Assembly: GCA_945917985.1 (NCBI GenBank)
Contig: CAMEIH010000008.1
Span: 1-64,000, forward strand
Direction: 5' to 3'
DNA: 64,000 nucleotides
Source of the DNA: an uncultured Clostridium sp.
Lineage (GTDB): Bacteria; Bacillota; Clostridia; Lachnospirales; Lachnospiraceae
The notes under the pieces: generated by a model
Told to the model about the DNA's origin: nothing
Databases searched by the model: none
What the model saw: the letters and a program-made list of their open reading frames with translations, nothing else
Program-made: the position numbers and the translations under genes
Part shown: positions 9,524 through 30,151 of the stretch, piece by piece
Numbering within the stretch: the first letter of the stretch is position 1
How the letters are laid out: each line of letters begins with the position of its first letter

Positions 9524-9597
9524 AAATAAAAATAAGCCAGCTTCTTTTTAAGAAACTGACTCCTATTAGTCCTTCATGCAACCCGATCGCCGCATGG
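9524..9597 (-). ncRNA. structured phage RNA, copy A (lysis module leader)
   Basis: In minus-strand order: hairpin CATGC/GCATG (extended by G-U and C-G pairs) closing a GATCGG loop, then AAGGACTAATAGGAGTCAG, whose last bases start a second hairpin (GTCAGTTTCT pairing AGAAGCTGGC), then TTATTTTTATT. Copies B and C have the same architecture with compensated stems. The U-rich end lies about 25 nt before the next start codon. Confidence 0.75.
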
Positions 9598-9639
9598 AAT
9601 TATTCTATTTATGATTATTTTACCATCTTAGCTGCACCA

Positions 9640-10095
9640 GTGCAACTTCCTGTTTTCTACAACAGAACATATTTTCCATTTGCCCTCTTAGACAACAGTT
9701 TAGGCGGTTTAAGTTTTGGTACTGATGGAGATGGTAACTACGGTTACTATGGGGCTGATGGCAGCCTTATCCATTTTAAGAGTGGCAAATTATTATTCGC
9801 TGCAAAATTTGCTTATTCTACAAAAGACGATGGTAATACCTGTTATTCGTTTTCAGTTGATGGAATTAATAAAATATTAATTACTGGAATAGCTCTTCGT
9901 TCAGGAACAGGACTTTATGTAGTTCCAAATAACAATATTGCTACAGGTGCAAGTACTACTCCTTCAATTTCTGATTCTATTGCTACAGTAATAAGTACTA
10001 CACCTTTGGAAGTTGATGTATCAAACTATGATTATATTACCCTTATGTATTATGGTGGCGACCAGTATATCACTTTCAAAGTAGAATCAATATAA
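9640..10095 (+). CDS. oppositely oriented alternative tail-fibre C-terminus
   Basis: This plus-strand frame stands tail-to-tail with the fibre gene; the two stop codons are 1 bp apart. Its sequence (LDNSLGGLSFG, GDGNYGYYGADGSLIHF) is of the type found near the ends of Lachnospiraceae phage fibres and aligns in layout with the resident fibre end ([29 protein letters not shown]). No SD precedes the GTG and the frame is open upstream, as expected for a silent cassette. TAGACAACAGTTTAG (9689-9703) matches, inverted and in the same codon phase, a site in the resident fibre gene. Confidence 0.65.
   Translation: MQLPVFYNRTYFPFALLDNSLGGLSFGTDGDGNYGYYGADGSLIHFKSGKLLFAAKFAYSTKDDGNTCYSFSVDGINKILITGIALRSGTGLYVVPNNNIATGASTTPSISDSIATVISTTPLEVDVSNYDYITLMYYGGDQYITFKVESI
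9689..9703 (+). repeat. inverted repeat, left copy (fibre switch candidate)
   Basis: TAGACAACAGTTTAG matches the reverse complement of 10432-10446 at 14 of 15 bases. The two copies flank 728 bp that holds both alternative fibre ends. Confidence 0.6.
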
Positions 10096-10096
10096 T

Positions 10097-12368: not shown

Positions 12369-12376
12369 AATTCCTC

Positions 12377-15114: not shown

Positions 15115-15124
15115 AATCGCTCTC

Positions 15125-18100
15125 CTATGTCAAATTAAATACATTATTTCCTGATGATATCTGTTCAAGCTTCGCTGCATCCACAATGGTTTCTAATACT
15201 TCCCTTCCGTCCAAATACAGTTTTATAATTATACTTCCAGATCCGGATGTTTTTCCCATTTCCATGTTGGCTTCTTTTAATGCCTGCTTGATCGTCGAAA
15301 GTGGGCTTACTACCTCTGTCTCCTTATTATTGTCTCCAAGGCGGGCAAGGTGTTCCTTCATCGTTCTTGGGATCACCTGTCCATTTGCGTATCCGGGAAC
15401 CTTCAAGTTCGATAGTGATACGGATCGTACAATTGAATACCCGGTATTTCCCGATCCCCCATATGTAAATCCACCGCTCATTTTTCCTTTCAGCTCTTCT
15501 ATTTTGGATTTTACACTATCGACAACGCTTGTGATTTTTGAAGAAATGGAATCAAACACACTTGCAACCTTACTCTTTAAAGATTCAAATACGTCAAACC
15601 ACGTACTCTTGATTGACCCCAATTTTTTAGAAACATTATCATCTGTTTCAGAAAGATTGCTATCGACCGATTCTTTTATACCAACGCATGCGTCATCTGT
15701 TGACTTCTTCGCCTGATCCATTCCTTCCGACACGCTATTTCCAATATTCTCGCTTGACGCTTGAATATTTTCGCTTGCAGACTGGATACCCTCATCAAAC
15801 GTATTTACAGCTCCTGACGTATTTTCCATTGCACTCTGATAGTAGGCAAGATAATCAGTTCCTTCCTGCATTGCCATAAAGAAGTTTTTGGCTTCATCTG
15901 TCATTGCAGATTGGTTTCCTGTCATCATTTCCAGTTCAAAAGAATAGTCACCAGTTGTTTTACTGAGCACGTCAAAACCGTCATGTATATCCTGTAATGT
16001 CTGTACGCTGGCATCACTTAATCCAACGAAAGTATCGGCAATACTTCTAAGTTCCGGATGCATATTAAGCATGGACTGCCTGAGCATTTCAATATCTTCA
16101 TCTGTTAATCCAAAATTCTTCTGTAATTTGGAAAGCTTTTCGTCCGTGTAGATCATTCCGTCCGCTATATTATTCATAGCAGTTTCAAGTGCTCCGGTTG
16201 CTCCTAATTGGTTGCTCATTTCCCAGCCAAGACCTTGAATTCCATTAGTTAAAATTGAAGCTGTATCTTTGACTAAATTCAAGTCTCCAGAAAGTCCATT
16301 ATATCTTTCTTTCATATAGTCTGCATCTTTCGCACTCATTCCTGCTGCTTCACCTAATTCTATAATAGGATCTTTTGCAACCTCTACAATTCCAAGTGCG
16401 GCCAATGCTCCAAGTGCAGTTTTTAATCCTCCTATTGCGGTACTTACCTCTCCAATTCCCTTTGCTGCCCCCGCACCGGCACCGCCAATTCCAAAGAATG
16501 AAAGAAAACGTATTATAGTATCAAATACTCCTGTTACAGACTTTACGGCACTAAATGCAATAAGTGCGGTTTTCAGTCCTATCAGTGCCTTTACAATACT
16601 CTCAAGCCCATCTGCCATATCTTCTGGCTTTACTTTTGACATCCAGTCTGCCACCATATCAAGAAAATTTTTAAATTCTTGACTGTTCAAAAAATTAGCA
16701 AGAGCATTAGCGCATCTATCTATGAATATAATAAGTCCCTCACCAACTGTCTCCGCGAATGGCTCCAATGCATCCCAGAAATCAGAAAGGCTTTGTCTTA
16801 GTTCATCCCATTTTACCTTTTCATTGAATTTTGTCAGCACATCAAGAAGATCAGGAAGCCCTTTTTCCAGAGTCCATTTACCAAGCGGTAATAATACCTG
16901 CTCATAGAAGTCAGTGATAACGCCACTCAGGTTATCAACTACCGGTATTAATGATTCTGTAAGTCTCTCAAACGCCTCCAGCAAAGGAGAGAAATTCAGA
17001 TTTTTTGCCCATTCAACAGTGTAATCTGCAGCTTCTCTGATATTTTTTATAATAACAGCGAATATGTCACGTATATTTTCCAGAATGTGCAGTCCAGTCT
17101 GATTCTCATTCCATGCTTCTCTGAAATTCTTTGCAAGGTTTCCGACAATTAATCCAATATCTCCAATTATATGAAGAATATCAGAAAACATATCTACAGT
17201 CTTGTCCTGCTGCCATACGGTAAGGAAATCGCGTCCAATATCCTTAATCAGACTTCCGATTTCTTTCAAAGCGAATTTCCAGGAATCCATGACAAATTTT
17301 CCTTCACGGTCCCATGCTTTTTTCAACGGCTCAAATATCTTGGAAAGCACATTTTTTATCTTATCAGCCATGTCTTTGAAGTAGCTATCAACCGGCACTT
17401 CTTCAAACATATCTGTGATTCCGTCACCTGATGCTTCTTTTCCTGTGTCTATCTTTATCTCTTTTTCAGATTCAATCTTGTTCAGCTCATCGAGTGGAGA
17501 CAATATGTTATTCATTGCCTTTTCAGCATCTTCTGCAGAATCCTTTAAGTCTTCCATAGCAGATGAAGCATTCTCTATTGATCCGACACCAGAACTGATT
17601 GCCCTTGTGTATGATCCCTTGCCCAAGAGTGCAGCAATGAGCTGTGCTACTGCATTAGCCGCCTTCGTTAGGTACGAAACAAGCGTCTCAATGTATGGTA
17701 TTGCTATCTGTACGATGGGAGCAAATGCGGATGCAAATGTATTTTTTAACTGCAGCAACCTCGAGTTCAGACTGTCAACAGATGCTTTAAATGCATTATT
17801 TTGTGCATAAAAGTTAGCGAATCCTTTCTCTATGCCAGAAAACATATTCCGGAATCCTGCACTTATCACATTAAAAATGAATATTCCGGACAAAAGGCTC
17901 TTAAGTCTCGATCCAAACTTTGACATCGCTGTATTGGATCTCTCTGTTTCTTTCCGGAATGATGGGAGTATTCTCTGTACAATATTTTTCATTCTCTTAG
18001 CAAAAGAATCTACAAAAGAATTTGCTTTTCTCAAACACGATCCAATGCTATCAAATGATTTTCTGATCGTATTCCCTAAATTTTTAGAGCTATCTGCCGT

Positions 18101-18586
18101 TTTGATTTGTTTTAAACTTAATTCTTCATGCTTCTGATTCAGAGATGTAAGATCATTTTCAGCATATTTCAACTGCTGAGACAGCTTTGAGAACTCATCA
18201 GTTGAACTTCCGATAGTAAATGCTTTTCCAGTCTCTACGAGATCCTGTAAATCTCCCTTTGCGTACCTAATTTCATTCCTTATCTCATCCATCTGGTCAT
18301 TTAATCTTTGCCAGGAAGTGCCATTATCCTTTCCCTCTCGTTGCATCTGTTCCTGTTTTTCCAGAAGCCTATTAAATTTTTGTTCTGCCTTTTCTATTTG
18401 TGCTGTTATTTCCTGGTATTCCTGCGTGGGAATTTTGGCATTTCTGAGCGAATCCATTTTTGAACGCAACGAAGAAACCTTATCTGCTGCTTTCATAATC
18501 CTATTCTGCAGTGTCAAAAGCTGACTTGACGCTTTCTTGGTATCAATTTCTGTGTTGATCCTTATGGATCCATCATATTCCGCCAT
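15125..18586 (-). CDS. tail tape measure protein
   Basis: This 1153-aa protein sets tail length. Residues 1-200 are coiled coil (LQNRIMKAADKVSSLRSKMD), followed by hydrophobic membrane-like helices around 225-250 and 655-710 (GIGGAGAGAAKGIG), and more coils near 950-1050. Length and position after the tail chaperones are diagnostic. If the usual ratio of about 0.15 nm per residue holds, the tail would be near 170 nm (inference). It is separated from the chaperone genes by a terminator-like hairpin. Confidence 0.92.
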   Translation of the reverse strand: MAEYDGSIRINTEIDTKKASSQLLTLQNRIMKAADKVSSLRSKMDSLRNAKIPTQEYQEITAQIEKAEQKFNRLLEKQEQMQREGKDNGTSWQRLNDQMDEIRNEIRYAKGDLQDLVETGKAFTIGSSTDEFSKLSQQLKYAENDLTSLNQKHEELSLKQIKTADSSKNLGNTIRKSFDSIGSCLRKANSFVDSFAKRMKNIVQRILPSFRKETERSNTAMSKFGSRLKSLLSGIFIFNVISAGFRNMFSGIEKGFANFYAQNNAFKASVDSLNSRLLQLKNTFASAFAPIVQIAIPYIETLVSYLTKAANAVAQLIAALLGKGSYTRAISSGVGSIENASSAMEDLKDSAEDAEKAMNNILSPLDELNKIESEKEIKIDTGKEASGDGITDMFEEVPVDSYFKDMADKIKNVLSKIFEPLKKAWDREGKFVMDSWKFALKEIGSLIKDIGRDFLTVWQQDKTVDMFSDILHIIGDIGLIVGNLAKNFREAWNENQTGLHILENIRDIFAVIIKNIREAADYTVEWAKNLNFSPLLEAFERLTESLIPVVDNLSGVITDFYEQVLLPLGKWTLEKGLPDLLDVLTKFNEKVKWDELRQSLSDFWDALEPFAETVGEGLIIFIDRCANALANFLNSQEFKNFLDMVADWMSKVKPEDMADGLESIVKALIGLKTALIAFSAVKSVTGVFDTIIRFLSFFGIGGAGAGAAKGIGEVSTAIGGLKTALGALAALGIVEVAKDPIIELGEAAGMSAKDADYMKERYNGLSGDLNLVKDTASILTNGIQGLGWEMSNQLGATGALETAMNNIADGMIYTDEKLSKLQKNFGLTDEDIEMLRQSMLNMHPELRSIADTFVGLSDASVQTLQDIHDGFDVLSKTTGDYSFELEMMTGNQSAMTDEAKNFFMAMQEGTDYLAYYQSAMENTSGAVNTFDEGIQSASENIQASSENIGNSVSEGMDQAKKSTDDACVGIKESVDSNLSETDDNVSKKLGSIKSTWFDVFESLKSKVASVFDSISSKITSVVDSVKSKIEELKGKMSGGFTYGGSGNTGYSIVRSVSLSNLKVPGYANGQVIPRTMKEHLARLGDNNKETEVVSPLSTIKQALKEANMEMGKTSGSGSIIIKLYLDGREVLETIVDAAKLEQISSGNNVFNLT

Positions 18587-18604
18587 AAAAATTCACCCAT
18601 TAAT

Positions 18605-18643
18605 TAAAAAAACGCCGGCAAACGCTTTTATACGTTTACCGGC
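18605..18643 (-). terminator. intrinsic terminator/attenuator before the tape measure gene
   Basis: On the minus strand GCCGGTAAACG and CGTTTGCCGGC form an 11-bp stem (one G-U) followed by GTTTTTTTAA. It sits inside the late operon only about 20 bp upstream of the tape measure ATG, and probably lowers tape-measure expression relative to the major tail protein. Confidence 0.8.
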
Positions 18644-18679
18644 ACCTATTTGCCGCCGCTCATAACCGCTTTCATGAGC

Positions 18680-19273
18680 CTATCCTAATACCCTTGTGAT
18701 GAGATCCTGGTATTCTTTCTCCTGCTGCATTTCTTCACGTGTTTTAGGCTTTCTGATTTCGATCAGCTTCCTGTTTTTTCTGAGGAACTCCATCTCATGC
18801 TTTTCCAGCTTCTTTCCCTTATTGAGCTTGTCCCTTATGCCAACAATAAAGGAAAAAGTACCTTCCTCTATTTCATTGAAATAACCTATGAATGTCCACC
18901 AGTGCATATATTCTTCCGCACGTGTCTCTCTATTTGCTACTTTATTTACGGCAGAAAATATCATCTGCTCATCTTTAGCCCAGTCGTATGTAGGCAGTTC
19001 ACATGAATTATTCTCTTCAGAACCCGCTTCGATAAACCATTTTATTCCTTCCGCGGCTTCCTTTACATCAAATCCATTCTCCACAGCTTTCTCAACATCA
19101 TCCGCACAGGAGAAATCTTCAAACAGAAGAAATATTGCAACGATCCATTTTTCTGCATTATCAAGATCTGGATCCGAAAATGCTTCCAGCACCTGTAAAA
19201 CATTTCTGAAATCAGATCGTATTGCATATTCCCTGCCGCCTACATTTAATGACTCTGGTAATGCGCCGATCAT
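18680..19273 (-). CDS. Gp15-family tail protein (tail assembly chaperone)
   Basis: This 197-aa protein matches the bacteriophage Gp15 family in its N-terminus (LNVGGREYAIRSDFRNVLQVL) and the YMHWWTFIGYFNEI segment. Such proteins occupy the second chaperone position just before the tape measure gene. ATGA overlap (4 bp) with the upstream chaperone gene. No slippery frameshift site was obvious at the junction. Confidence 0.8.
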   Translation of the reverse strand: MIGALPESLNVGGREYAIRSDFRNVLQVLEAFSDPDLDNAEKWIVAIFLLFEDFSCADDVEKAVENGFDVKEAAEGIKWFIEAGSEENNSCELPTYDWAKDEQMIFSAVNKVANRETRAEEYMHWWTFIGYFNEIEEGTFSFIVGIRDKLNKGKKLEKHEMEFLRKNRKLIEIRKPKTREEMQQEKEYQDLITRVLG

Positions 19274-19779
19274 TTTTTCCTACTCGCTTTCTTATGGTCC
19301 TGCGGCACATATCTTGCCATTCTTTCCTGGCTGGCTTTTTTATATCCTTCAATCTTCCTGTTGAAAAGGTCTTCCATAATTGGGGAAATCTTTTCAAAGA
19401 AATCAATAATACATTCTGCGTCCGGAAGGAAATCCGGAATTTCTTCATAGACATTTCGGAAGAATTTCTTTACTGTGCCTTCCCCGAAAATGCTGTCAAT
19501 TACGCTAACTGCTTCTTCAGAGAACTTTACACTCTCCTTTGACGACTCTATTGTTTTATTCATAACTGCATTAAAGTCTGTTCTGTCCGCATACTTCCTC
19601 TCAATGTCTGCAAGCTTTTTCGGAAGATCATCTGCAAGATCTGCTATGTGCTTAAATCCTGCGGCGAACTTATCAAACAGATTCTGGCTGTCTGCGGATA
19701 TTGCTACATAGTCTCCCATATCATTCAGTTCAATTTTGACTAATGAGGTACCATTTTTTTCTATTTTTATTTTTTCCAT
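19270..19779 (-). CDS. tail assembly chaperone-like protein (DUF6673 type)
   Basis: This 169-aa protein (MEKIKIEKNGTSLVKIEL start) has a small beta N-terminus and an alpha-helical remainder ending in a basic tail (DHKKASRKK). Position between the major tail protein and Gp15 fits a tail chaperone. The ATG three codons after an in-frame GTG is chosen because AAAGG lies 9 nt upstream of it. Confidence 0.65.
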   Translation of the reverse strand: MEKIKIEKNGTSLVKIELNDMGDYVAISADSQNLFDKFAAGFKHIADLADDLPKKLADIERKYADRTDFNAVMNKTIESSKESVKFSEEAVSVIDSIFGEGTVKKFFRNVYEEIPDFLPDAECIIDFFEKISPIMEDLFNRKIEGYKKASQERMARYVPQDHKKASRKK

Positions 19780-19798
19780 ACTTAACACCCTTTCTCAA

Positions 19799-19833: not shown

Positions 19834-19883
19834 ATATTAAGTTTCCCTAATACCTTTGGTTATTACGTCCCAGATTCGTTTCC

Positions 19884-20381
19884 CTATGAAGTTCCCTCCG
19901 TGAATGTAGGAACCCTTTCCGTTACTGAAACTGTTCCTTCTTTCCGTCCACCATTCATGTGAATATTAAACGGAATTCCAAATCCTGTTGTATCCCCGCC
20001 GTATTCCTGAGGAACAACTACGCAGTTCTCAACCCATGCTTTACCGGTCAGGGTTGACACATCTGAGTTCTTTACTTCATCCGTGAGAACTGCTTCCATA
20101 AGGTATGCTGCAATGGTTCCTTCATCTGATTTGCGGTTCATTGCAATATCCAGAATCGGCTCATAAATAACATCCTCTGTTCTTGCAACATAGGTATCCA
20201 CACTCAGCTCAGGTGTAAATCCACTGTGTTCCACTGTGGTCTCTCCAAGGACATTCTGTTTTGTCTCAACACTCGGATTCAGTGACATGGACAAAGAATC
20301 CGTATCCTTTCCCAGAAGGGTCCATTCATTTTTGTCAAATGAAAGCCATGTGGCCTGCACTGCTCTTGCTAATTTCGGCAT
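19884..20381 (-). CDS. major tail (tube) protein
   Basis: This 165-aa protein starts MPKLARAVQATWLSFDK with AAGGAGG upstream; a longer frame of 9 codons starts inside the preceding gene. Beta-rich composition with NPSVETKQNVLGETTV, position after the tail terminator and before the chaperones, and size fit a siphovirus tail tube protein. Confidence 0.75.
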   Translation of the reverse strand: MPKLARAVQATWLSFDKNEWTLLGKDTDSLSMSLNPSVETKQNVLGETTVEHSGFTPELSVDTYVARTEDVIYEPILDIAMNRKSDEGTIAAYLMEAVLTDEVKNSDVSTLTGKAWVENCVVVPQEYGGDTTGFGIPFNIHMNGGRKEGTVSVTERVPTFTEGTS

Positions 20382-20394
20382 TTCCTTTTCCTCC

Positions 20395-20847
20395 TTAATC
20401 TTTTTCATATTCCATCACTGCGTCTGCAGCGAATATAGTACTCTTATCTCCTCCAGCCTTATCCTTATACGGAAGGCTGTTTGACGCTGTTATCTTTGTA
20501 ATAGTCCTTCCACCGGACAGTTTCTGCATTGTTCCATATTCTTCCAGCCAGCTCATGATAGTATCTACCTTAGCCTGGCTGTTGATTCTCTGATCATTGG
20601 ATGTCGGGAAGCTCCTGTATGCGATCTGAAATTTAATTTGTGCAGTAAATCCTCCGATCACATTCCGCTTAAGGTACTTTGCCCCAGGAAGCGTGTAAAT
20701 GCCTATGGATTCCACGGCATCAATCGACTGATACTGTACCGGAACTTTTTCTGGAATAAACGGACATCCCTTCACCAAATCCAGAAGCAGATTTCCGATT
20801 TTATCATACTCCTGCTTACTGAGCGGATCCTTTTCTTCGGATGGCAT
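20395..20847 (-). CDS. tail terminator / minor capsid-like protein
   Basis: This 150-aa protein resembles phage minor capsid/tail-completion proteins (PF12691-like), with RSFPTSNDQRINSQAKVDTI and the C-terminal AADAVMEYEKD. Its position immediately before the major tail protein fits the tail terminator role. Confidence 0.7.
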   Translation of the reverse strand: MPSEEKDPLSKQEYDKIGNLLLDLVKGCPFIPEKVPVQYQSIDAVESIGIYTLPGAKYLKRNVIGGFTAQIKFQIAYRSFPTSNDQRINSQAKVDTIMSWLEEYGTMQKLSGGRTITKITASNSLPYKDKAGGDKSTIFAADAVMEYEKD

Positions 20848-20848
20848 C

Positions 20849-21307
20849 TTACTTCCCTCCTATCTCAAATCTTGGTACCAGTGAATATGTATCCACATTG
20901 CTCATGGAAAATGCATAGTCGAATTTTCCCTTTACAAAATTGAAAAACCCTACTTCATAATCAGAACTTTTTATCATTCCGACAGGAAGTACAATATCGA
21001 TTCCAAGATCCTTTTTCTTTACAATGACAAAGAAGTTATCGGACTCAGGATCAAACGTGAAATGCTCTACTTTTTCATTCTCGTCCATCTCCTTCCATTG
21101 ATTGGGAGAAGCATATGCTTTTGTGTCATCAGAATGCGGAATCTTTACCACACATTTATTTGCGCTTTCCATCCCGCTTTTCATCTGGTTTGCGCCGTGT
21201 GTCAGCTCAACTCTCACACCGTCAAATCTTTTCCCGACAAAGAATTCATCTTCATCCACGATATATCTGTTATAGACAACAACAGCGTCTTCATATCCTA
21301 TTCCCAT
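20849..21307 (-). CDS. head-tail joining protein (neck, unknown family)
   Basis: This 152-aa protein (FFVGKRFDGVRVELTHGANQ) lies in the head-closure slot between the connector and the tail terminator. No motif proves its role. It overlaps the upstream connector by 10 bp. Confidence 0.6.
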   Translation of the reverse strand: MGIGYEDAVVVYNRYIVDEDEFFVGKRFDGVRVELTHGANQMKSGMESANKCVVKIPHSDDTKAYASPNQWKEMDENEKVEHFTFDPESDNFFVIVKKKDLGIDIVLPVGMIKSSDYEVGFFNFVKGKFDYAFSMSNVDTYSLVPRFEIGGK

Positions 21308-21798
21308 ATCTCACACTTTCCGGGATAAGGTCCGGCATACAGAAGGTTTACCCCATTTGCGTCTTCCATCATTGACAAATTATCTTTGATCACAGAATAG
21401 ATCTGCATATCAAAGACTTTTTCGTCTTTTGCCGCCTCTGAAAGAGTGGTTTTATCCCCGCTACCGCTTGAATAACTTCTCGATTCAGAACCGGATGTAA
21501 CGGATGTTATGATCCTGCCTATTGCTTCTCCATTCTCCCCGGTTTTATATCCAGCTGAGTCATTAAGGTTTTTCCGGTAGTCATCAACTGATTTCATGAA
21601 ATCCACCAGCTCGCATATACAGTCTTTTACGGCGCAGACAGAATCTTCATTAACGGGAAATGCAAAGGAGAGCTTTCCCATTGTGATCTGGTCCATTCTC
21701 CTTTGCGCTTTTCTTGCGTACACTTTAAATTCGTCTTCCGTAACTTTCTTACCGTTATATTCAGTTTGATAGTATTTGAAATCAGTGTACTGTGCCAT
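21298..21798 (-). CDS. head-tail connector (gp6-like adaptor)
   Basis: This 166-aa protein is mainly alpha-helical at the N-terminus (FKVYARKAQRRMDQITMGKL, CAVKDCICELVDFMKSV) with a Ser/Gly-rich loop, as in gp6-like connector proteins. It directly follows the major capsid gene. Confidence 0.72.
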   Translation of the reverse strand: MAQYTDFKYYQTEYNGKKVTEDEFKVYARKAQRRMDQITMGKLSFAFPVNEDSVCAVKDCICELVDFMKSVDDYRKNLNDSAGYKTGENGEAIGRIITSVTSGSESRSYSSGSGDKTTLSEAAKDEKVFDMQIYSVIKDNLSMMEDANGVNLLYAGPYPGKCEIWE

Positions 21799-21803
21799 AT
21801 TCC

Positions 21804-22988
21804 TTAACCTCTGGTCTTAATTCTCGCAATCGCAATAGCCTTATGAGGATAATACTCAGGTGATCCGCTCTCATTGCTGTTTGCGATCTCCCAGTTGGAT
21901 CCTGTTGCAAGCTGCTCATCCGTAGGAGAAATAATGTTTGACTTCTTGAACGAAATTCCATAGGGTGAGAAAATCTTTCTCTGGCGGCTCCAGAGTGTAG
22001 TCTCTCCTCCATTCTTGGCATCATCTTCAGACATAGAATAAGGCTTCTTAGCTCCGCAGTTTGTATACTCAATAGCTCCGTCTCCAAGAACATAAGTTGT
22101 GTACACGATACCTGCAGGAAGAAATACAACATAATCTCCCTCTACCGGTTCATATCCGGATGCCGCAGGAGTTACACTCTCCAGCTTGATCTCATTGTCA
22201 CCAGGTGTAGCAGAGTTTGCCACAACCTTAAGTGCGCCTTCATCCTTTACAGATGCTTTCACATAACATTCAGTAACTTCCTCTGTAGGCATATCGTCGT
22301 CAACAAGAGCAAGTCTTCCGTTGATGCTATACAGAGTAAGATCCTTTTCCACACCATTTGCATCTGTAAACTTAAGGTGAGCCATGAGCTTCTTATTCTC
22401 GACGCCTGTTGATACCTGGGAATGCATGATTGCCAGGCTGAACTTACTCTTGTTGTCGCCAAGAGCTTTCTGGATACCAGTATTCAGCGTTGTTTCACCG
22501 AACTCATTATTCGGAGTGTTGCTGATATCATAGGTATGACCATTTACGAATTCAAGGTTCTTCGCTCCTGTCATGGAGAAGATACCTTTCAGTGTAGCAA
22601 GCAGCGTAGCCTGGTCTACATCATCCCAGTATTCTGCAATTTCCTGTGTTGCAGGAAGAAAATCTTCCCCTGTGATATCAGATGAAAAGTCCTTCTCTGT
22701 CCAGCCATTTGCACGACCTACCACGATACGTCCCTGCAGATAGGTTTTACGACTGTTTGTTGTGATGTCTGTAGCACCATCATAATTCACTGCCTTTCCG
22801 CCAATTCTTGCCTTGATAGGAACAGCAATATAGTTTCCACCTGTCTGATCTGGAAGCATTGCCGCATACTGCGGTTTCTCAATTATTGCACCAGACTTCA
22901 GAAGCTCGTTACGCTTCAAATTGGGAGCCTTATCCACATAAGCCCCAAATACTTCACCATTGAAATTTTTTGCGTCAAATAATGGCAT
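21804..22988 (-). CDS. major capsid protein
   Basis: This 394-aa protein begins MPLFDAKNFNGEVFGAYVDK and resembles Firmicutes phage capsid proteins of the HK97-like fold. The E-loop-like region (VPIKARIGGKAVNYDGATDI) and the ITGEDFLPATQEIAEYWDD segment are typical. It follows the scaffold gene, and no separate protease gene is present, consistent with scaffold-directed assembly. Confidence 0.88.
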   Translation of the reverse strand: MPLFDAKNFNGEVFGAYVDKAPNLKRNELLKSGAIIEKPQYAAMLPDQTGGNYIAVPIKARIGGKAVNYDGATDITTNSRKTYLQGRIVVGRANGWTEKDFSSDITGEDFLPATQEIAEYWDDVDQATLLATLKGIFSMTGAKNLEFVNGHTYDISNTPNNEFGETTLNTGIQKALGDNKSKFSLAIMHSQVSTGVENKKLMAHLKFTDANGVEKDLTLYSINGRLALVDDDMPTEEVTECYVKASVKDEGALKVVANSATPGDNEIKLESVTPAASGYEPVEGDYVVFLPAGIVYTTYVLGDGAIEYTNCGAKKPYSMSEDDAKNGGETTLWSRQRKIFSPYGISFKKSNIISPTDEQLATGSNWEIANSNESGSPEYYPHKAIAIARIKTRG

Positions 22989-23003
22989 AATTCTTCATCC
23001 TCC

Positions 23004-23621
23004 TTACATGTACTGGCTGATATCCAGTCCAGGATTGTCATTCTTCATCTGCATCAGTTTTTCCGGTGACACTTTTGTACCCGGCTTAGGCAGACTTTCC
23101 ATCCTGGTTGTGAATTTCGCCTTGTTGTCCCCGGCCCTTTGCTGTTCATCAGTGATGAATGCATTCGGATCGTTCTTTGCATAGTTTTCCTGGAAATCAT
23201 TCAGACCATAGATCTTTCCATCCTTCATGGTAAGAGCAGCCTCTTTCAAATCAGCAATATAAGCTTTCTTAGCACTCTCAGAAGAGAATGTCAGTGTGCT
23301 TACATGCTCATTTACCGCATCTGCATAGTCTCTCTCTGCAATCTGCTTCGCAAATTCCTTCTCAGCGTCTTCCGCACGCTTTTTCCAGTCATCCCGGTCT
23401 TTTTTGATGTCCTCAATTTCTTTTCCATCAAGTCCGTTAAGAGTTGCCTCTGCGTCCTCAGCTCTCTTTTTCCACTCGTCCCTATCACTTTCAGCCTTTC
23501 CTACCTTCTTGTCATGTTCCAGATTAGAAATGACATCCTCGGTGAACTTCTTTGTGATAGCTCCTTTCTGATCATCAGAAAGCTCGAGTCCAAGTTTTTC
23601 CAGTTCTTCAATAATTTTCAT
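23004..23621 (-). CDS. phage scaffolding protein (GP20 family)
   Basis: This 205-aa protein has a long charged coiled coil with two repeats of DRDEWKKRAEDAE/DRDDWKKRAEDAE near residues 46-90, and a C-terminal LPKPGTKVSPEKLMQMKND that should bind capsid protein. The family guides procapsid assembly and is absent from mature virions. It sits directly before the capsid gene and behind structured-RNA copy B and a tRNA-like element. Confidence 0.9.
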   Translation of the reverse strand: MKIIEELEKLGLELSDDQKGAITKKFTEDVISNLEHDKKVGKAESDRDEWKKRAEDAEATLNGLDGKEIEDIKKDRDDWKKRAEDAEKEFAKQIAERDYADAVNEHVSTLTFSSESAKKAYIADLKEAALTMKDGKIYGLNDFQENYAKNDPNAFITDEQQRAGDNKAKFTTRMESLPKPGTKVSPEKLMQMKNDNPGLDISQYM

Positions 23622-23699
23622 TGCGTATCTCCTTCTTAAAAGTTTTTTATCCGGTCAGTCCGGCACGATTGAGCTGCTATTTTACCCATAGCTGGTAAT

Positions 23700-23754
23700 T
23701 GCACAGGCAGGATTCGAACCTGCTGCCATAAGGCTTCCTATTTCCTACAATGCA
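23700..23754 (-). ncRNA. tRNA-like element with intact T-arm
   Basis: On the minus strand GCAGG-TTCGAAT-CCTGC is a canonical T-arm. It is flanked on the 3' side by CTGTGCA, which pairs with TGCATTG 48 nt upstream (one mismatch, one G-U) as an acceptor-like stem, and GCC-TTAT-GGC could form a small arm between. At 55 nt there is no room for normal D and anticodon arms, so it is not a decodable tRNA. ACCA follows 2 nt beyond. It may be a decayed tRNA or a tRNA mimic. Confidence 0.45.
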
Positions 23755-23827
23755 AAAAAAATGGAGCCAATAACCATTTCTGGTTACTGACTCCTATTAG
23801 TCCTTACAAAGTACCGATTTACTTTGT
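23753..23827 (-). ncRNA. structured phage RNA, copy B (scaffold/capsid leader)
   Basis: Minus-strand order: ACAAAGTA/TACTTTGT hairpin with an AATCGG loop, AAGGACTAATAGGAGTCAG, then a 13-bp stem (GAGTCAGTAACCA/TGGTTATTGGCTC, GAAA loop) and CA plus eight T. The first stem differs in every pair from copies A and C but remains fully paired. It overlaps the stop codon of the 42-aa gene upstream. Confidence 0.8.
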
Positions 23828-23947
23828 GACAATATTCTTTTTTACTTCATACACAACCAGTGATCCGTCTGATCGTGCTTTTACTTCGGCATTATTTCCC
23901 TTTTTTACTATGGCTCTGATCGCCGTAAGAATCTGTGCATCGTTCAA
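23819..23947 (-). CDS. small phage protein, 42 aa
   Basis: A TTG start preceded by GGAAGGTGG gives MNDAQILTAIRAIVKKG, then NNAEVKARSDGSLVVYEVKKN. Short proteins of this type (charged, with EVKxRxDGSxxVYEVKKK) recur in head modules of Firmicutes phages. Function unknown. Its stop codon lies inside RNA copy B. Confidence 0.65.
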   Translation of the reverse strand: MNDAQILTAIRAIVKKGNNAEVKARSDGSLVVYEVKKNIVTK

Positions 23948-24041
23948 ATTACCACCTTCCTTGCACTCTGTAAACCTTCTCCTATATTGATATCATATCA
24001 TTAGCAGCAGATATAATGCAATATCATTTTTATTCATTATT

Positions 24042-24170
24042 TTAATCACTCTCCCAATAGCTATCATCAGCCATAGGATCATGATCATCCAAAACAAATT
24101 CAGTATCTTCCGGAAAGTCTTCAATATTCTTATCTGCAGGTATGTCAGTTATTTTAATCTTTCTGCTCAT
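24042..24170 (-). CDS. small acidic phage protein, 42 aa
   Basis: The frame starts MSRKIKITDIPADKNIEDF and ends in an Asp/Glu-rich tail (DDHDPMADDSYWESD). The ATG lies inside the 3' end of the minor capsid gene (17-bp overlap) with AAGGAT upstream, suggesting coupled translation. Function unknown. Confidence 0.55.
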   Translation of the reverse strand: MSRKIKITDIPADKNIEDFPEDTEFVLDDHDPMADDSYWESD

Positions 24171-25953
24171 CAAAACGATCCTTCCCATATTTCATATTAT
24201 ATTTCTCTGCAAATAATCTATTTACTTCATCACTGCAAAGCCTGTATCTCTCTATTTTTGATATCTTTCCTTCACGATATAATTCATTATATTTCTTTTT
24301 TACCTTTATTGCAATCCTATCTCTTTCTTTTTGTATTTTGTCCGCTGTGTTTATTTCTGACGGCCATTTTGAAGGCCTATGTAGATAATATACTCCATCT
24401 GATGTTGCCACACGTATTTCTGCTGCATAGCTTTTTTTAAGTGTATAAATATCAGAGGCTGATAGTGATCCACCTGAAGGATGGTTATGCGATATTACGC
24501 ATCCTTTAAGCTTTTTCATTTCCAACAGTGTGAAATTAACTTCATTATAACTCCCTCTTTTCTGAAATACAAATTTTCCATTTGCATCATATACAACCGC
24601 TGTCTCCTTATCTCTTATTGAAAGTACTTTTTCATCAGAAAGTAGCTCTCTTCTTGCCTCTTCAGCCCATTTATCACTTGTTTCTTCTAAAGACAAATTA
24701 ACCTGTTTATTCTCATATCTTGTAGCTGCGCCGTTTGCAATACTGGATTGCTTTTTCTTAAATCCTCCCACCTTTATCCTGTCATACTGCTTCTGAAGTC
24801 CGTTCTGCTCACAGAAATCATTATATGCATTATTCTGCTCCCTAAGCCTGTATGCCAGCTTATCATAGTCTTCCTTGAGCATACCTATTACATCAGTTTC
24901 TGCAACTCCATTGATTTCCTGCTGCTTCACAAGAAGTTCTCTCTTCGTCTTCCTGATCGCACGCTCCATCATACGCTGTTTCTGTTGCAAGCTATATAAT
25001 TTTTTGTTCTCCTCACTATCAATTTTGAGATTTCCATTTTCATCAAGATATGGATTTCTTAATCTCTTATCCCAAGGCTTATGGGAATGCCTGCAGTTAT
25101 ACCCATGAAGTCCACGTGGATCAACTACTATACCAGTTCCGGATACTGGATCTATATCATAACCGGTACTCTCCAAAAGATTCGGATACCCCGGCTCACT
25201 CCCTCTAATCCTGTATACTTTCCCCTGCCAGTTATCATGCCCGGAAAGATATGGCTGCCCTTTCTGCTGTGTTCTTGCGCCAAGATGAGCGGATACAAGG
25301 ACATACTCACTCTTTGCTTCCACGATATACTGATTTGTCACCTGCGCAGCTGTCTGATTCATTGAAGTCACTACACACATTCTGACTGCTGCCTCCAGGC
25401 TCCGTTTTGTCCCAGTTGGATATTCTATCTCGATTCCTTTTCTTGCATACCTGTCAAGAATATCACATACTGCAGAAGAATAGCTCTGAACTCCGCTTGA
25501 TACTCTGAATTCCGCTTCGTCAAGCATATTGATAAGATCCGCCTGGCATTTATTCATCGTGCTTCTTGTCAGATTAGAAAGCTCTCCTAGGCTCTTTTTA
25601 TACTCTGCATCCATGATCCTTATTACAGAAGGATTTTCAAGCGGAGAAAGTACATCAGCTCCAATATCCTGAAGCGTTTTCCTGTCATCCTCCCATGATG
25701 TCATGACAACCTCCTGTAGAAGACTTCTAAGCTCTTTTCTGCTTAATCCTGTCAGCTCTGACAGTTTCTTTTCTATCTCCTGTCTGCTCTCTCCCATCAT
25801 ACGCAGTCTGTAAATAAGCCTGTCTGTTGTTCCTGACATTTCTCCAGCCTTTAGCAGTCTCATAGATATATCGTGCATAATAAAATCCACAAGTTGCCTG
25901 TATATTTCAAGCATCCTGTCTTCTTTGTTAATAAAATATCCCGGTTTAAGCAT
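24154..25953 (-). CDS. minor capsid protein with C-terminal JAMM/RadC-like metallopeptidase domain
   Basis: This 599-aa protein has an N-terminal phage minor capsid (min_cap2) region (about 1-330; REQNNAY-type helices and the DPRGLHGYNCRHSHKPW motif). It is followed from about residue 420 by a separate domain with EVNFTLLEMKKLKG-CVISHNHPSGG-SLSASD, a JAB/RadC-like HxH...SxxD metal site near residues 489-501. It should sit at the portal vertex and may be ejected with DNA. The metallopeptidase-like domain could process capsid proteins or act in the host cell (inference). Confidence 0.82.
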   Translation of the reverse strand: MLKPGYFINKEDRMLEIYRQLVDFIMHDISMRLLKAGEMSGTTDRLIYRLRMMGESRQEIEKKLSELTGLSRKELRSLLQEVVMTSWEDDRKTLQDIGADVLSPLENPSVIRIMDAEYKKSLGELSNLTRSTMNKCQADLINMLDEAEFRVSSGVQSYSSAVCDILDRYARKGIEIEYPTGTKRSLEAAVRMCVVTSMNQTAAQVTNQYIVEAKSEYVLVSAHLGARTQQKGQPYLSGHDNWQGKVYRIRGSEPGYPNLLESTGYDIDPVSGTGIVVDPRGLHGYNCRHSHKPWDKRLRNPYLDENGNLKIDSEENKKLYSLQQKQRMMERAIRKTKRELLVKQQEINGVAETDVIGMLKEDYDKLAYRLREQNNAYNDFCEQNGLQKQYDRIKVGGFKKKQSSIANGAATRYENKQVNLSLEETSDKWAEEARRELLSDEKVLSIRDKETAVVYDANGKFVFQKRGSYNEVNFTLLEMKKLKGCVISHNHPSGGSLSASDIYTLKKSYAAEIRVATSDGVYYLHRPSKWPSEINTADKIQKERDRIAIKVKKKYNELYREGKISKIERYRLCSDEVNRLFAEKYNMKYGKDRFDEQKD

Positions 25954-26363
25954 TATCCTCTCCCCGCCGTTTCCTTAACAAGCTTTATCCATTCTTCCTT
26001 ATGCTGCTCCTTTGCAGTTTCAAACCAGTGGTCTCCTGTTCCCTCCGTATGGTAGCTAAGCGGTTCTCCGGCCGGATACTTTTTCTCATACTTTTTAGCC
26101 CATGAGCTTCCATTCTCTGCAAGATATAATTCACCTTCATACTGATAATGGGCATATGGAGTACTCCATTCTATTTCACCGCCATTTATTCCTTGAGGAT
26201 AATTTACACTATTCCTCAATGCTCCCTGCTGGAATGGAATCAGCGGATCACAGTCTGCCACTATCTGCATATTGAGAAGTTTCTGCGCTTCTCCTATGTT
26301 TTTATCCAGCCTTGAAGTGTCAATGCTTATGTCCACGGATCCTACATGTGTATTTATCTTCAT
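25953..26363 (-). CDS. minor capsid protein (PF11114-like)
   Basis: This 136-aa protein has the segment PFQQGALRNSVNY and YAHYQYEG, typical of minor capsid protein 2-type (PF11114) neck proteins. It follows the portal gene (4-bp overlap) and overlaps the min_cap2 start as TAATG. Confidence 0.78.
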   Translation of the reverse strand: MKINTHVGSVDISIDTSRLDKNIGEAQKLLNMQIVADCDPLIPFQQGALRNSVNYPQGINGGEIEWSTPYAHYQYEGELYLAENGSSWAKKYEKKYPAGEPLSYHTEGTGDHWFETAKEQHKEEWIKLVKETAGRG

Positions 26364-27814
26364 TTTCCGAACAGACCTTCCTGATCGGCCTCTTTGTTTT
26401 CTTCCCTTGCCATTTTTAGAAGCCTTCTTGCATCTTCCCTGGAATAATTAAGATACTCCACATAATATTCCTCCCAGGGATATTTACCGGCAACAGCTAG
26501 CTGGTAGTGGTGTATCTTGTCCTCTTCATAGTTATATGTGATGTCACCAAATGAATAATTTGCCTCATATTCACCGATAGGAGCAAGGCTGTACAGATCA
26601 GCAAATACTGATTCTGCGTACAGATATCCGTTCACTGCTACCTGCAGCGCGTCCCTGATATCCTTGATCGTCTGTATAGTCCTTCTGTCATCTGATTCCA
26701 CCTGTGTTGCTGTTACCATTCCTGTCTTCTGGTCAAACACAAAATATCCATTACTGTATCCGCATTTATAACCAATCATAGATAACAGATTGTTCATACC
26801 GGTTATCCTTATATCTGTACGGAGCGGGCGTTCTATTGCCTGATAGAAGTTATTGGCCCCCTGCCCAAAAACATTATGAACATGGTGCGGAAGTTTAATC
26901 TCAGAATCTGAATTAACCTTTGATCCTGACAGCATAAGAAGCCTGTCATCCACAAGCTCAATATTTTCACTGTCAAATATCTCGCCGGCGTTCCTGCTGT
27001 ATGCAATATCGAGATCCTTCATTTCTTCTATTGCTTCTGAAAATATGGCCATTCCAAGCGGACTGTCAAAATCTATGTTATTTGCAGCCGGCATCCTGAA
27101 TACTCCGAAAAGCATGGAATTGATCTTATCGCCGTTGTTTTTTGTTATTGTTACCTCGGGAAGCAGATTCTTCCACTTTGTTTCTGATATATCACATTCC
27201 TTTCCGATCCCTTGTGAGTTATCACTTTTATATGTCTTATTTGAGATCATATAGTAGGTAACATCCTTTTCGGATTCTTCACCAGGCATTCTCACACTTG
27301 CATTAAGGTATCTGTGGTATTCCAATTTTGTATAATACTTTTTACCGCTCTGATAAGTATCCTCAAAAATGATTCCAGAAATATTCCCGTTTCCATCCTT
27401 GTCCACTACAAAAAATCTATCCGGTGTAACTATGTCAGCGCCTTCTCCATTCGGCTTGATCACAACGGTGCCGGATGCGCATCCGAGTTCTACCCAGTTC
27501 CTTAATTTTGGCATAAGCACATTGTCGATTCTATTCTGCAGATACTCCGCCCTTGGCCCGCCATCAAGTTCTATTCCCAGAGCAAGAGTAGTGAGCCTCG
27601 CTGTCTCAGAGCAGATTGTCTTTGCAAAATTGATTGTTTTGATCCTGTCTTCCTTGCTTACCCATGAAGGGAATCCGCTGTAAATGTTGAGCCAATTCAA
27701 AATGGCAAAATCCATTTCCTGTGAACTTACAGACTCCACTTTAAATGCATTTTTTGCTTCTTTTGCAAACATATTATTCCACCATCCTTTTATTTTGCTT
27801 ATTAATCCCATCAC
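26360..27814 (-). CDS. portal protein (SPP1 gp6-like)
   Basis: This 484-aa protein has portal-family features: a core with WVELGCASGTVVIKPNGEG, the wing region with YHRYLNASVRMPG, and the stem/crown region around GYKCGYSNGYFVFDQKTG and VTATQVESDDRRTIQTIK. It forms the dodecameric DNA gate of the head. ATGA overlaps on both sides bind it to the packaging operon. Confidence 0.9.
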   Translation of the reverse strand: MMGLISKIKGWWNNMFAKEAKNAFKVESVSSQEMDFAILNWLNIYSGFPSWVSKEDRIKTINFAKTICSETARLTTLALGIELDGGPRAEYLQNRIDNVLMPKLRNWVELGCASGTVVIKPNGEGADIVTPDRFFVVDKDGNGNISGIIFEDTYQSGKKYYTKLEYHRYLNASVRMPGEESEKDVTYYMISNKTYKSDNSQGIGKECDISETKWKNLLPEVTITKNNGDKINSMLFGVFRMPAANNIDFDSPLGMAIFSEAIEEMKDLDIAYSRNAGEIFDSENIELVDDRLLMLSGSKVNSDSEIKLPHHVHNVFGQGANNFYQAIERPLRTDIRITGMNNLLSMIGYKCGYSNGYFVFDQKTGMVTATQVESDDRRTIQTIKDIRDALQVAVNGYLYAESVFADLYSLAPIGEYEANYSFGDITYNYEEDKIHHYQLAVAGKYPWEEYYVEYLNYSREDARRLLKMAREENKEADQEGLFGK

Positions 27815-28173
27815 AACGCACCTGCTTCCTGAAATGCCTTAAACAGCTTAGGCGCCTGAATAGCAATCCAGTCAACCATTTCTTCATTTTGAGCCCATCC
27901 ACCACCCAGTACACTCGAATCATCCTGCAATCCTGATTCGTTCAAAAAGGCATGAGTTATTTCATGGCGTAGTGTCCTTTTTGTCTGAAGGACCTGCTCT
28001 TCCTCAGATAGTTTTCCAAAAAATTCTTCCTCTGATGGATCGCCTATTAATATTTTGCGAGTCAAATTATTACATGATCCACACCAAGTATTCTTCTTTA
28101 GCAGATCACATTCTGAAATTCTAACGACCTCAATTGTATATTCCACTCCTAAAACATTTACATTATTTATCAT
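27811..28173 (-). CDS. small HExxH zinc metallopeptidase-like protein
   Basis: This 120-aa protein has an HEITHAFLNESG motif (HExxH) near residue 70 and two Cys (CGSC) at about 32-35. Such single-domain proteins occur beside phage portal/terminase genes; the substrate is unknown. The downstream EEMVDWIAIQ helix could carry a third ligand. It overlaps both terminase and portal genes by 4 bp, so it belongs to the packaging unit. Confidence 0.7.
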   Translation of the reverse strand: MINNVNVLGVEYTIEVVRISECDLLKKNTWCGSCNNLTRKILIGDPSEEEFFGKLSEEEQVLQTKRTLRHEITHAFLNESGLQDDSSVLGGGWAQNEEMVDWIAIQAPKLFKAFQEAGAL

Positions 28174-29810
28174 GCGCTTTCTCCTCTCCTCATTGATATC
28201 GGGCTTGTTGCATACCTGACAGCATCAATATAGTGGTTATCATGATCAGGATACCCATCTATGATTTCACCAGTTTTTTTATCAACCTCATGCTCATAAT
28301 TCGTAAACTCCTTATAAGCATTCGGCGTTCTTGCTGGATCTATGATAATTTTGCGGCACTGCAGCCACTCAAATGTTCTTTTAACGCTTCCGGACCCTGC
28401 CTCTGCCTGCCTTGCCATTAATCCGGCATCACGGAAGTCATTGATATGTTCCTGCTCATCTGCACCGCATCGCACCTCATAATCTGAGTATCCCTTATCA
28501 ATGATCATCTTGGCCATATCCTTCGTCCTGATGCAGGTTCCCCCAAGTTCGTCTATCAGCATTATTGTTTCTGTTGCATGACTGTATGACAGCCTCACAA
28601 ATGCTTTAGGATCCGGATGCCATCCCCAGTCCTGTCCCTGATATATTCTTTCCTGCCTCGCTATCTCCTCATCGGTGATCTCACGGATCTCCAAAAACTT
28701 AAATATCTCAGTTCCCAGTCCTATCGGTTCCCCAAGATATTCATGCTGGTACGCATCCGGATTTACCTTTTTCAGGTGCTCCGCTTCTTCTATGAACGCT
28801 TTTCCAAGCCACTCGGGAGGTACATCAAGATATGTAGAACGGTGCACAAGCATGGAATCCTTTGGTTTGTTGACATAATTATTCGCCCAGTTATTGATGC
28901 TGATTGGCGGGTTGAACATCTTTATGATCCACGCATCATCACCACCACGGATTGCAGACTGCTCAATCTTTCTGACTGGCTCTTCCCCTCCAAACTGGTC
29001 AAATTCTTCAAATATCAGGATTCCTATATGCCCGAAAGGCACCTTGATCGACTTTATCTTTCCTGGATCATCCGCTCCCCTAAAATAAATCTTCTGTCCG
29101 GTTGGCTTATATGTGATTTCAAGGGGAGATAATTTGAAATCCCAGTTATCTCTTACAAACATAGGATTTTCTGCCTGCTTATCTGCAGACCATTGAAACT
29201 GGGCGTATATGGAATCACGGAGCGTATTTGCCACCTGCCTTAATGCAAGGGCATGGACCTGCGGATTATTCATCATAAGCTCAAATGGTATCTCCGTTCC
29301 GCATGATGACTTCGTGGACCCTCTTCCGCCGCATAACACATATTCCCGATGCTGCCTATTTCTCATATCCCTTACAACCGGATGAAAGGTATCTGCAATG
29401 CTATCGAGATCTGTATGGTAAGGAGCTGCGTGTCTTGCTTCTTCCTCTGCCTTTTTCTTCTCTTCTTCCTTCGCCTGCACAGTCAGCGCCTTCTCCAGAG
29501 AATCCATCGCTTTCAGCTGATCGGAGAAATCAGGAGAAAAACCGAATCCGTCTTCCACCTCTCCTTTTGCGATTGCGCTTCTTCTTGCCTGGATCTCCGC
29601 AAGAGACATAATGTCATGACCTTTTATTTTCTCAATCTCATTCTGCCTTTTGGCTATATACTCTGAAACACACTTGTTTTCCCTTATTTTTTTTGCACTA
29701 CTTCTGGCATACCCTTTCCCATATCCAGCTGATATTGCTGCCTGATAATCATTTCCTCCATTTTCTATCCACGCATCAGCAAAATCCTTCTGTCTTTGAT
29801 TTATCGCCAT
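28170..29810 (-). CDS. terminase, small and large subunits fused in one protein
   Basis: This 546-aa protein begins with a small-subunit (Terminase_2/XtmA) DNA-binding domain (RQKDFADAWIENGGNDYQAA, residues 6-60). A charged coiled linker follows (about 110-128), then a large subunit with Walker A GGRGSTKSS (161-169), Walker B ILIFEEFDQF, and the RNase H-like nuclease DWGWHPDP. The two subunits are normally separate genes. The protein recognises and cuts concatemers and pumps DNA into the head. It overlaps the next gene by 4 bp. Confidence 0.9.
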   Translation of the reverse strand: MAINQRQKDFADAWIENGGNDYQAAISAGYGKGYARSSAKKIRENKCVSEYIAKRQNEIEKIKGHDIMSLAEIQARRSAIAKGEVEDGFGFSPDFSDQLKAMDSLEKALTVQAKEEEKKKAEEEARHAAPYHTDLDSIADTFHPVVRDMRNRQHREYVLCGGRGSTKSSCGTEIPFELMMNNPQVHALALRQVANTLRDSIYAQFQWSADKQAENPMFVRDNWDFKLSPLEITYKPTGQKIYFRGADDPGKIKSIKVPFGHIGILIFEEFDQFGGEEPVRKIEQSAIRGGDDAWIIKMFNPPISINNWANNYVNKPKDSMLVHRSTYLDVPPEWLGKAFIEEAEHLKKVNPDAYQHEYLGEPIGLGTEIFKFLEIREITDEEIARQERIYQGQDWGWHPDPKAFVRLSYSHATETIMLIDELGGTCIRTKDMAKMIIDKGYSDYEVRCGADEQEHINDFRDAGLMARQAEAGSGSVKRTFEWLQCRKIIIDPARTPNAYKEFTNYEHEVDKKTGEIIDGYPDHDNHYIDAVRYATSPISMRRGESA

Positions 29811-30064
29811 TCCATCACCGCCTTATAAATATCCAACAGGCAGAAGATTACTTCTGGCATCGAACACGTTTTTAATATTTCATAGTCTTTCTGCTTCCAA
29901 AGGCAGCTTCTTTCTGAGTAATATGTAACAGGTGTACTTATCCTGTATGACGTTATCATCCTTTTCTGATCAGCAGAATAAAACTGGCTGCTGTTTACCT
30001 TTACCACCAGTCCACTTTTTACAATCGCTGTCTGCAATTTTTTCATTCTGCCATTCAGATTCAT
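29801..30064 (-). CDS. small phage protein upstream of terminase, 87 aa
   Basis: The frame starts MNLNGRMKKLQTAIVKSG and contains SSQFYSADQKRMITSYRIST, a pattern seen in short genes ahead of terminases in Lachnospiraceae phages. Function unknown. The frame stays open upstream through RNA copy C, but GGGAAAG supports this ATG. It overlaps the terminase start by 10 bp. Confidence 0.65.
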   Translation of the reverse strand: MNLNGRMKKLQTAIVKSGLVVKVNSSQFYSADQKRMITSYRISTPVTYYSERSCLWKQKDYEILKTCSMPEVIFCLLDIYKAVMEWR

Positions 30065-30080
30065 ACTGCTTTCCCTCAAA

Positions 30081-30151
30081 CAAAAAGAGCCAGCACCCTT
30101 ATTCAGAGTTCTGACTCCTATTAGTCCTTCATGCATACCAATTTATGCATG
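30081..30151 (-). ncRNA. structured phage RNA, copy C (terminase operon leader)
   Basis: Minus-strand order: CATGCAT/ATGCATG hairpin with an inner A-U pair closing an AATTGG loop, AAGGACTAATAGGAGTCAG, then GAGTCAG/CTGGCTC with a short inner helix, then TTTTTG. It sits ahead of the whole late operon. Confidence 0.78.

Follow-up and report, generated by a model that had tools for sequence, protein, structure and literature searches.

gut-2 RNA elements of a Clostridium prophage as candidate antiterminators controlled by a 42-residue protein

What is the role of a structured RNA that recurs ahead of the late gene blocks of a prophage? This question is raised by a 64,000-nucleotide stretch of DNA (the window) from an uncultured Clostridium sp. 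(assembly GCA_945917985.1, contig CAMEIH010000008.1, positions 1 to 64,000). An initial annotation had placed three minus-strand copies of the element at 9524-9597, 23753-23827 and 30081-30151. All were found at these places, but the total is four, with an extra copy at 18635-18682 (-). These elements are members of the Rfam family gut-2 (RF02990). We propose, with a probability of about three in four, that each is an antiterminator under the control of a 42-residue protein, which would bind the paired hexaloops of the RNA, trap its second hairpin (P2) and thereby block the terminator.

Anatomy of the gut-2 elements and their terminators

Scanned with the Rfam gut-2 covariance model (cut-off 39.8 bits), copy 3 scored 55.6 bits at 30107-30154 (-) and copy 1 scored 50.2 bits at 9552-9599 (-). 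Copy 2, with 39.5 bits at 23783-23830 (-), fell 0.3 bits short, and copy 4 was not reported by this model in the window scan. Thus, with the cut-off reached by 2 of the 4 window copies, the model covers the family only partly. It has 48 positions and contains neither terminator nor protein, and the Rfam record is typed 'Gene; sRNA' with no function beyond that. The view that no named RNA shows this pattern therefore had to be given up. A literature search found no paper for gut-2 RNA and, for RF02990, one paper, on ectoine; a 2017 paper on 224 candidate RNAs, from which gut-2 may come, was outside its reach.

From 5' to 3', the element consists of P1 (8 bp, closed by a hexaloop), three bases, P2 (4 bp, also with a hexaloop) and a terminator built in part from the P2 3' arm. 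In each window copy both hexaloops are of the form RANNGG and lie 21 nt apart, and alignment to the Rfam model satisfied the gut-2 consensus structure of an 8-bp P1 and a 4-bp P2, each with a hexaloop. P1 is paired at 8/8 positions in copies 1-3 with different sequences, in agreement with the annotated stem that varies between copies yet always pairs. The stretch described as invariant does recur, in that the 19-mer AAGGACTAATAGGAGTCAG occurs three times without mismatch (mean of 0.03 occurrences in shuffled windows even at up to three mismatches). However, it is itself a hairpin, the P2 of copies 1-3 (GACU[AAUAGG]AGUC), whose 3' arm is common to the terminator. Copy 4 has the same architecture with a different sequence.

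Covariance models (R1 and R2) were built, a check that the initial annotation had proposed, and further covarying members were found in viral contigs and genomes. A DNA pattern search returned 28 stretches in viral contigs and 13 in a collection of 84,980 species genomes. At least six of the eight P1 pairs were present in 22/28 and 12/13 of these, respectively; the others (6/28 and 1/13) were excluded before counts were made. A descriptor that combined two hairpins with RANNGG hexaloops and a stem beginning in P2 and followed by a T tail was applied to 1.54 Mb (the fetched loci and the window). It gave 88 matches, 35 of them distinct, and none on reversed sequences. A looser scan, in which no terminator was required and spacings of 12-40 were allowed (16-40 for an 8-bp P1), likewise gave 35 distinct elements, all with a spacing of 21, and one match in the reversed control. 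Note that for 22 of the 35 the search pattern had itself dictated this spacing; the other 13, copy 4 included, also have 21. Alignment A1 held 23/24 distinct sequences, and alignment A5 held 34 elements, namely 32 of the 35 from the looser scan and two from the pattern set, with the four window copies included. All eight P1 pairs and all four P2 pairs show double-sided changes across the 34 distinct elements, and the covariation score of 1.080, compared to 0.270 in shuffles, was reached in 0 of 500 shuffles. Paired cells made up 96.8% of this alignment, a value flattered because the elements were partly selected for pairing, and 25.5-44.1% when the partner was slid by 1-3 columns.

R1 and R2 found no element in the fetched parts of Montmirail, Jekyll and Dulem virus 35 (21.9 of 45.2 kb for Dulem), which are close to the window phage by terminase, or of the fecal records MT835516, MT835739 and MT840013. 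As a separate observation, a RAGATH-21 RNA is present in Dulem virus 35 and a type II hammerhead ribozyme in a fecal phage record (L078:10502-10578 and L079:13538-13605).

To locate the terminator in each of the 35 distinct elements, the best stem with a T-rich tail was sought from base 20 onward. This stem covered the P2 3' arm in 35/35 elements, with all four bases paired in 34. Because the arm is common to both, P2 and the terminator are mutually exclusive. The combination of P1 and terminator was more stable than that of P1 and P2 in every distinct element (35/35), and the computed minimum-energy fold of each of the four window leaders contains P1 and the terminator but lacks P2. Both pairings are retained by nine different P2 3' arms; swapping P2 arms between elements caused only a partial loss of pairing (3.20 compared to 3.97 of 4). 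The greater stability of the terminator fold suggests that termination is the default, and readthrough would therefore require something that holds P2. A conditional terminator, as suggested at the outset for the timing of late expression, fits this use of the P2 3' arm and the position of the copies before virion-gene blocks.

A small protein gene linked to the RNA

Comparison of the open reading frames (ORFs) of gut-2 records yielded a protein family of ~45 residues whose gene ends at the element. The window protein has 42 residues, is basic and is encoded adjoining copy 2, at 23819-23947 (-), with a TTG start, GGAAGGTGG upstream and its stop codon inside P1 of copy 2. An iterated hidden Markov model (HMM) search detected the protein in 21/23 gut-2 record groups (25 gut-2 groups, less two that repeat other records) but in the fetched parts of 0/5 control phages. 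It was missing from two groups: the contig of G089 stops 325 nt upstream of the element, and G071 is a fragment of 8 kb. Among the families listed from ORF clusters of the 25 gut-2 groups and five controls, no second regulator tracked gut-2 as closely.

The linkage was also recovered starting from the protein. A protein search of viral contigs gave 40 loci (16 + 24), of which 18 lie on contigs already known from the RNA, and R1 matched at the stop codon in 33/40. Of the other 22 contigs, which include near-duplicates, 21 have an element at the stop codon: 15 by R1, three more by R2 (L132, L133 and L159) and three by eye (L136, L137 and L160, with L137 unreported by R2). In L134 the element lies 1.6 kb downstream of the small protein gene. 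Note that the R2 scan covered 17 of the 40 loci. In linked cases the stop codon either falls inside P1 or precedes the element by at most ~25 nt.

Among 392 genomes of the order, the protein was found in six and the RNA by R1 in three, all three being among the six (p ~2e-6, or 1.3e-4 without the genome to which the window belongs); both models behind this co-occurrence include sequences of that genome and of the phage of G395. The window's own genome has one protein match and four elements. The five other order genomes with the protein, each searched with R2, all show an element, R2 having been trained on those of G395, G400, G142 and G369 and not on that of G211 (E 0.006). In 391 genomes of the class, the protein search with A4 matched four, one of these matches being no more than a stretch within a 359-residue frame, and R2 matched two. 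In the RNA-found genome G006, a weak match to the protein lies ~0.9 kb upstream of the element. At E ≤0.1, the protein was present in 10/12 gut-2 genomes of the species collection, the other two being G085 and G089; in G085 it was found by the iterated HMM despite being missed at E 0.1. The protein is rare in 50,697 phage records, with matches in MT835513.1 (E 4e-6), MT837048.1 (2e-4) and Flavonifractor phage Chenonceau (0.3). Other matches were worse, those to a Microcystis phage and to Listeria phages (E 6 and 7) being weak, at E 0.5 or above. MT837048.1 has an element right behind the protein gene (R2 31.2 bits), and weaker elements lie elsewhere in MT835513.1 (17.1 bits) and Chenonceau (25.1 bits, with a poor terminator). 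The 79-kb viral record G068 (L107, L109) contains two genes for the small protein and two gut-2 elements, each of which precedes a tape-measure-like gene.

Searches for relatives of the protein gave nothing above cut-off in Pfam (7 members, then 26 members) or in NCBIfam (4 members), and no match to the ANTAR domain (PF03861). In PHROG (7 members), one subfamily matched phrog_29211, of unknown function, with an E of 1.4e-7. Thus, a small protein family without a Pfam family above cut-off is encoded beside gut-2, which is new here. AlphaFold2, supplied with 26 related sequences, predicted a helix (residues 3-15) and two strands (19-24 and 30-35) with a mean pLDDT of 91.4 and a pTM of 0.61. Fold comparison matched only common arrangements, and the resemblance to Cro (Pfam or fold) is weak. 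The net charge is positive in 26/26 members. Moreover, pN was below pS in all 75 pairs of relatives kept of 171 (pN below 0.35 and more than four changes; the pairs are not independent), consistent with purifying selection and indicating that the peptide itself matters.

Loop conservation is partly imposed, because both the search pattern and the descriptor demand RANNGG-type loops; the unbiased evidence comes from the loci found through the protein, for which no loop was demanded. Read by eye, their P1 loops are AAUUGG, AAUGGG, AAUCGG, AAGCGG and GAAUGG, and also AAUAGA, AAUGGA and AAUUGA, with a constant A at position 2, a constant G at position 5 and G or A as the last base. Their P2 loops are similar, except for a 5-base loop in L135 and a U at the start in L132, L133 and L137. 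The gut-2 loop consensus thus widens to RANNGG, with RANNGA in some elements. A match between loop and protein type is hinted at in these sequences by eye: proteins with GNT in place of GNN pair with A or G as the third loop base (L166, L167, G211 and one G068 pair). The other G068 pair (GYT, with U) and the occurrence of AAGNGG P1 loops also with GNN proteins run contrary to such a match. Kissing between the P1 and P2 loops was rejected, as the loops of the window copies are by eye not complementary.

Placement in late operons and proposed regulation

The window copies precede terminase, scaffold/capsid, tape-measure and tail-fibre/lysis genes, and the same gene boundaries are reused across different phages. 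Elements stand before terminase in the window, G090, G091, G092 (near-twin G088) and L018; before scaffold/capsid in the window, G090, G091, G092, L122, L132, L133, L135, L137 and L151; before the head maturation protease in the L138 type; and before the tape measure in the window, twice in G068, and in L032, L167 and L176, with L166 one gene earlier. Copy 1 of the window precedes a tail-fibre-like gene. In G065, G066, G067, G079, G084 and G085 the elements are near helix-turn-helix, polymerase-like or helicase-like genes. G083, G089 and G093 were left out of this assignment.

Copy 3, before terminase, comprises P1 at 30130-30151 (-) with loop AAUUGG, P2 at 30113-30126 (-) with loop AAUAGG, and an intrinsic terminator with U-run at 30078-30118 (-) that overlaps the P2 3' arm (minimum-energy leader fold, z -4.92). 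A sigma-70-like promoter, TTTACA-17-TATAAT, lies directly upstream at 30167-30195 (-). It matches the consensus at 11 of 12 positions and is the best of 33 sites in 18000-32000, where shuffles give 34.8 sites; its score was reached by 0/300 shuffles of the 103 upstream bases. Just upstream, at 30197-30469 (-), a 90-residue protein with two CxxC pairs is encoded, which matched nothing in PHROG and nothing above cut-off in Pfam. In copy 2, before scaffold/capsid, P1 (loop AAUCGG) is at 23806-23827 (-), P2 (loop AAUAGG) at 23789-23802 (-) and the terminator, again overlapping the P2 3' arm, at 23754-23794 (-) (leader fold z -8.34).

Copy 4, directly behind an ORF ending at 18680 and before the tape-measure gene (phrog_1535), was found by the descriptor scan, with P1 (loop AAGCGG) at 18658-18679 (-), P2 (GGCA[AAUAGG]UGCC) at 18641-18654 (-) and the overlapping terminator at 18606-18646 (-) (z -3.58). 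It scored 9.5 bits with R1 (E 0.5) and 39.1 bits with R2, which had been built with copy 4. Copy 1 has P1 (loop GAUCGG) at 9575-9596 (-), P2 (loop AAUAGG) at 9558-9571 (-) and a terminator overlapping the P2 3' arm at 9524-9562 (-) (z -5.34). It is followed by the tail-fibre-like gene (phrog_1348), an unnamed ORF, holin and endolysin. The annotated position ahead of lysis thus holds only approximately.

The five terminase-class copies each have a sigma-70-like site with the -10 ending 15-25 nt upstream. These sites score 11, 10, 9, 9 and 11 of 12, values reached by 0, 2, 10, 35 and 0.3% of shuffles, respectively. Among the other 23 copies examined, 21 score at most 8 of 12, L032 scores 9 and G089 scores 10. 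Going by these promoter-like sites, the terminase copy resembles a leader of the late transcript, and the remaining copies resemble gates within it. A further promoter-like site, TTGCAA-17-TATAAT (10/12), lies at 24286-24314 (-), within the terminal part of the minor head gene, and might allow separate expression of the small protein.

How might the switch operate? The small protein, probably as a dimer, would bind both hexaloops simultaneously and hold P2 together, locally preventing the terminator so that polymerase enters the next gene block. Without the protein, late transcripts would end just past the late promoter, with further stops ahead of the head, tape-measure and tail/lysis blocks. 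In the window, G090, G091 and G092, the protein gene comes after the first gate. Because it sits inside the late operon, late expression would be self-reinforcing: slight leak-through would allow the protein to be made, which would open all sites, at the terminase, head, tail and lysis blocks. The direct observations behind this reading are the exclusivity of P2 and terminator, the two-loop geometry, the link to one protein gene and the repeated placement. We think it fairly probable that this represents a new class of phage antitermination, in which a 42-residue helix/beta-hairpin protein reads a two-hairpin RANNGG code (core A-N-N-G) at near-constant spacing, and one protein opens all late blocks through local terminators in a self-reinforcing manner.

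Several other explanations were weighed. The elements might be ordinary, unregulated terminators, preceded by a conserved hairpin, that set virion-protein ratios. Sites before terminase, scaffold and tape measure would suit a need for different amounts, but this leaves unexplained why P1 covaries, the hexaloops come as a pair, the spacing is nearly constant and a protein gene is linked; we consider such fixed attenuation unlikely, although it ranks first among the alternatives. Next to it, and no less doubtful, comes attenuation in cis, in which ribosomes translating the small ORF would choose the hairpin, the peptide being merely a leader. This would agree with the stop codon close to or inside P1 in linked cases. 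However, no such ORF lies directly upstream of 3/4 window copies, 5/5 terminase-class copies and 5/7 tape-measure-class copies (L166 and L167 have one), and the protein is under purifying selection and has a confident predicted fold.

The binder could instead be a host protein such as an ANTAR regulator, with another role for the small protein. The host does have one ANTAR protein, encoded outside the window on another contig, and the two hairpins and terminator overlap resemble ANTAR targets as described in PMC3369931. Since ANTAR loops have A1 and G4, in contrast to A2 and G5 here, and the RNA tracks the small protein, we rate this lower again. Least probable of all, and very unlikely, is an RNA like HK022 put, raised in the initial annotation, that acts directly on RNA polymerase without a protein. 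Two stem-loops, several copies per phage and one copy right behind a promoter-like site would be in keeping with it. Against it, P2 has only 4 bp and shares an arm with the adjacent terminator, which is the anatomy of a local switch, and a dedicated small protein gene accompanies the RNA. If the proposed control of gut-2 by the small protein is true, an orphan Rfam family would gain both a function and a partner protein. It would also offer an account of how late genes may be timed in some phages of gut and rumen Clostridia, through local antitermination at a series of gates, and add a candidate RNA-binding regulator of 42 residues whose RNA code is simple.

Other features of the locus were noted in passing. 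A tRNA-Arg gene follows the gut-2 terminator beside the small protein gene at L122:3197-3268, L123:290-360, L086:18592-18662 and L082:15879-15951; in three of the four it is just before the scaffold gene, and L123 has another gene there. The window has an apparent tRNA remnant with a GGTTCGAATCC T-arm at 23690-23755 (-), and ARAGORN finds no tRNA in the window. From translations only, ORF ends at 5592-6248 (+) and 51806-52378 (+) resemble parts of one peptidase-like gene and apparently flank the prophage, and a serine-recombinase-like gene lies at 50284-51843. Together, the split gene and the recombinase-like gene suggest that the prophage is integrated inside the peptidase-like gene.

Comparison with known antitermination systems

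In anatomy, gut-2 resembles the RNA targets of ANTAR proteins (EutV, NasR and AmiR), which PMC3369931 describes as two small tandem hexaloop hairpins, the second overlapping an intrinsic terminator. gut-2 likewise has tandem hexaloop hairpins with P2 overlapping the terminator, and both loop codes have A and G three positions apart. In ANTAR loops, however, these are at positions 1 and 4, whereas in gut-2 they are at 2 and 5. The window loops lack G at position 4 (P1 AAUUGG, AAUCGG, GAUCGG and AAGCGG; P2 AAUAGG), and a few relatives have it (AAUGGG in P1 of L149 and L150). ANTAR targets have a 5-12 nt linker and 3-bp stems, in contrast to the near-constant spacing and 8-bp P1 of gut-2. In addition, gut-2 is found in phages, and its candidate partner is a 42-residue helix/beta-hairpin protein with no ANTAR domain. 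Membership of the ANTAR class was therefore rejected on both loop code and protein. We propose that gut-2 works like an ANTAR target without being one, as loop positions, spacing and protein differ.

HK022 put, as covered in PMC9378689, resembles gut-2 in having two stem-loops and more than one copy per phage and in antitermination, which for gut-2 is proposed. In contrast, put needs no dedicated protein factor and affects terminators 10 kb or more distant, whereas a gut-2 element overlaps a terminator of its own and is accompanied by a protein gene. With the Rfam description of gut-2, our elements share the two hairpins, the hexaloops, the spacing and much of the sequence; the difference is that we read them as cis-acting leaders with a proposed partner protein, where the record says sRNA gene. 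Lambda N is a small basic phage protein that reads RNA hairpins (nut) and switches on later genes; it is rich in arginine and acts at a distance together with Nus factors. Part of this description of N is also found in PMC9378689. In contrast to lambda N and nut, the switch proposed for gut-2 would be local, and its protein is predicted to be a helix followed by a beta-hairpin.

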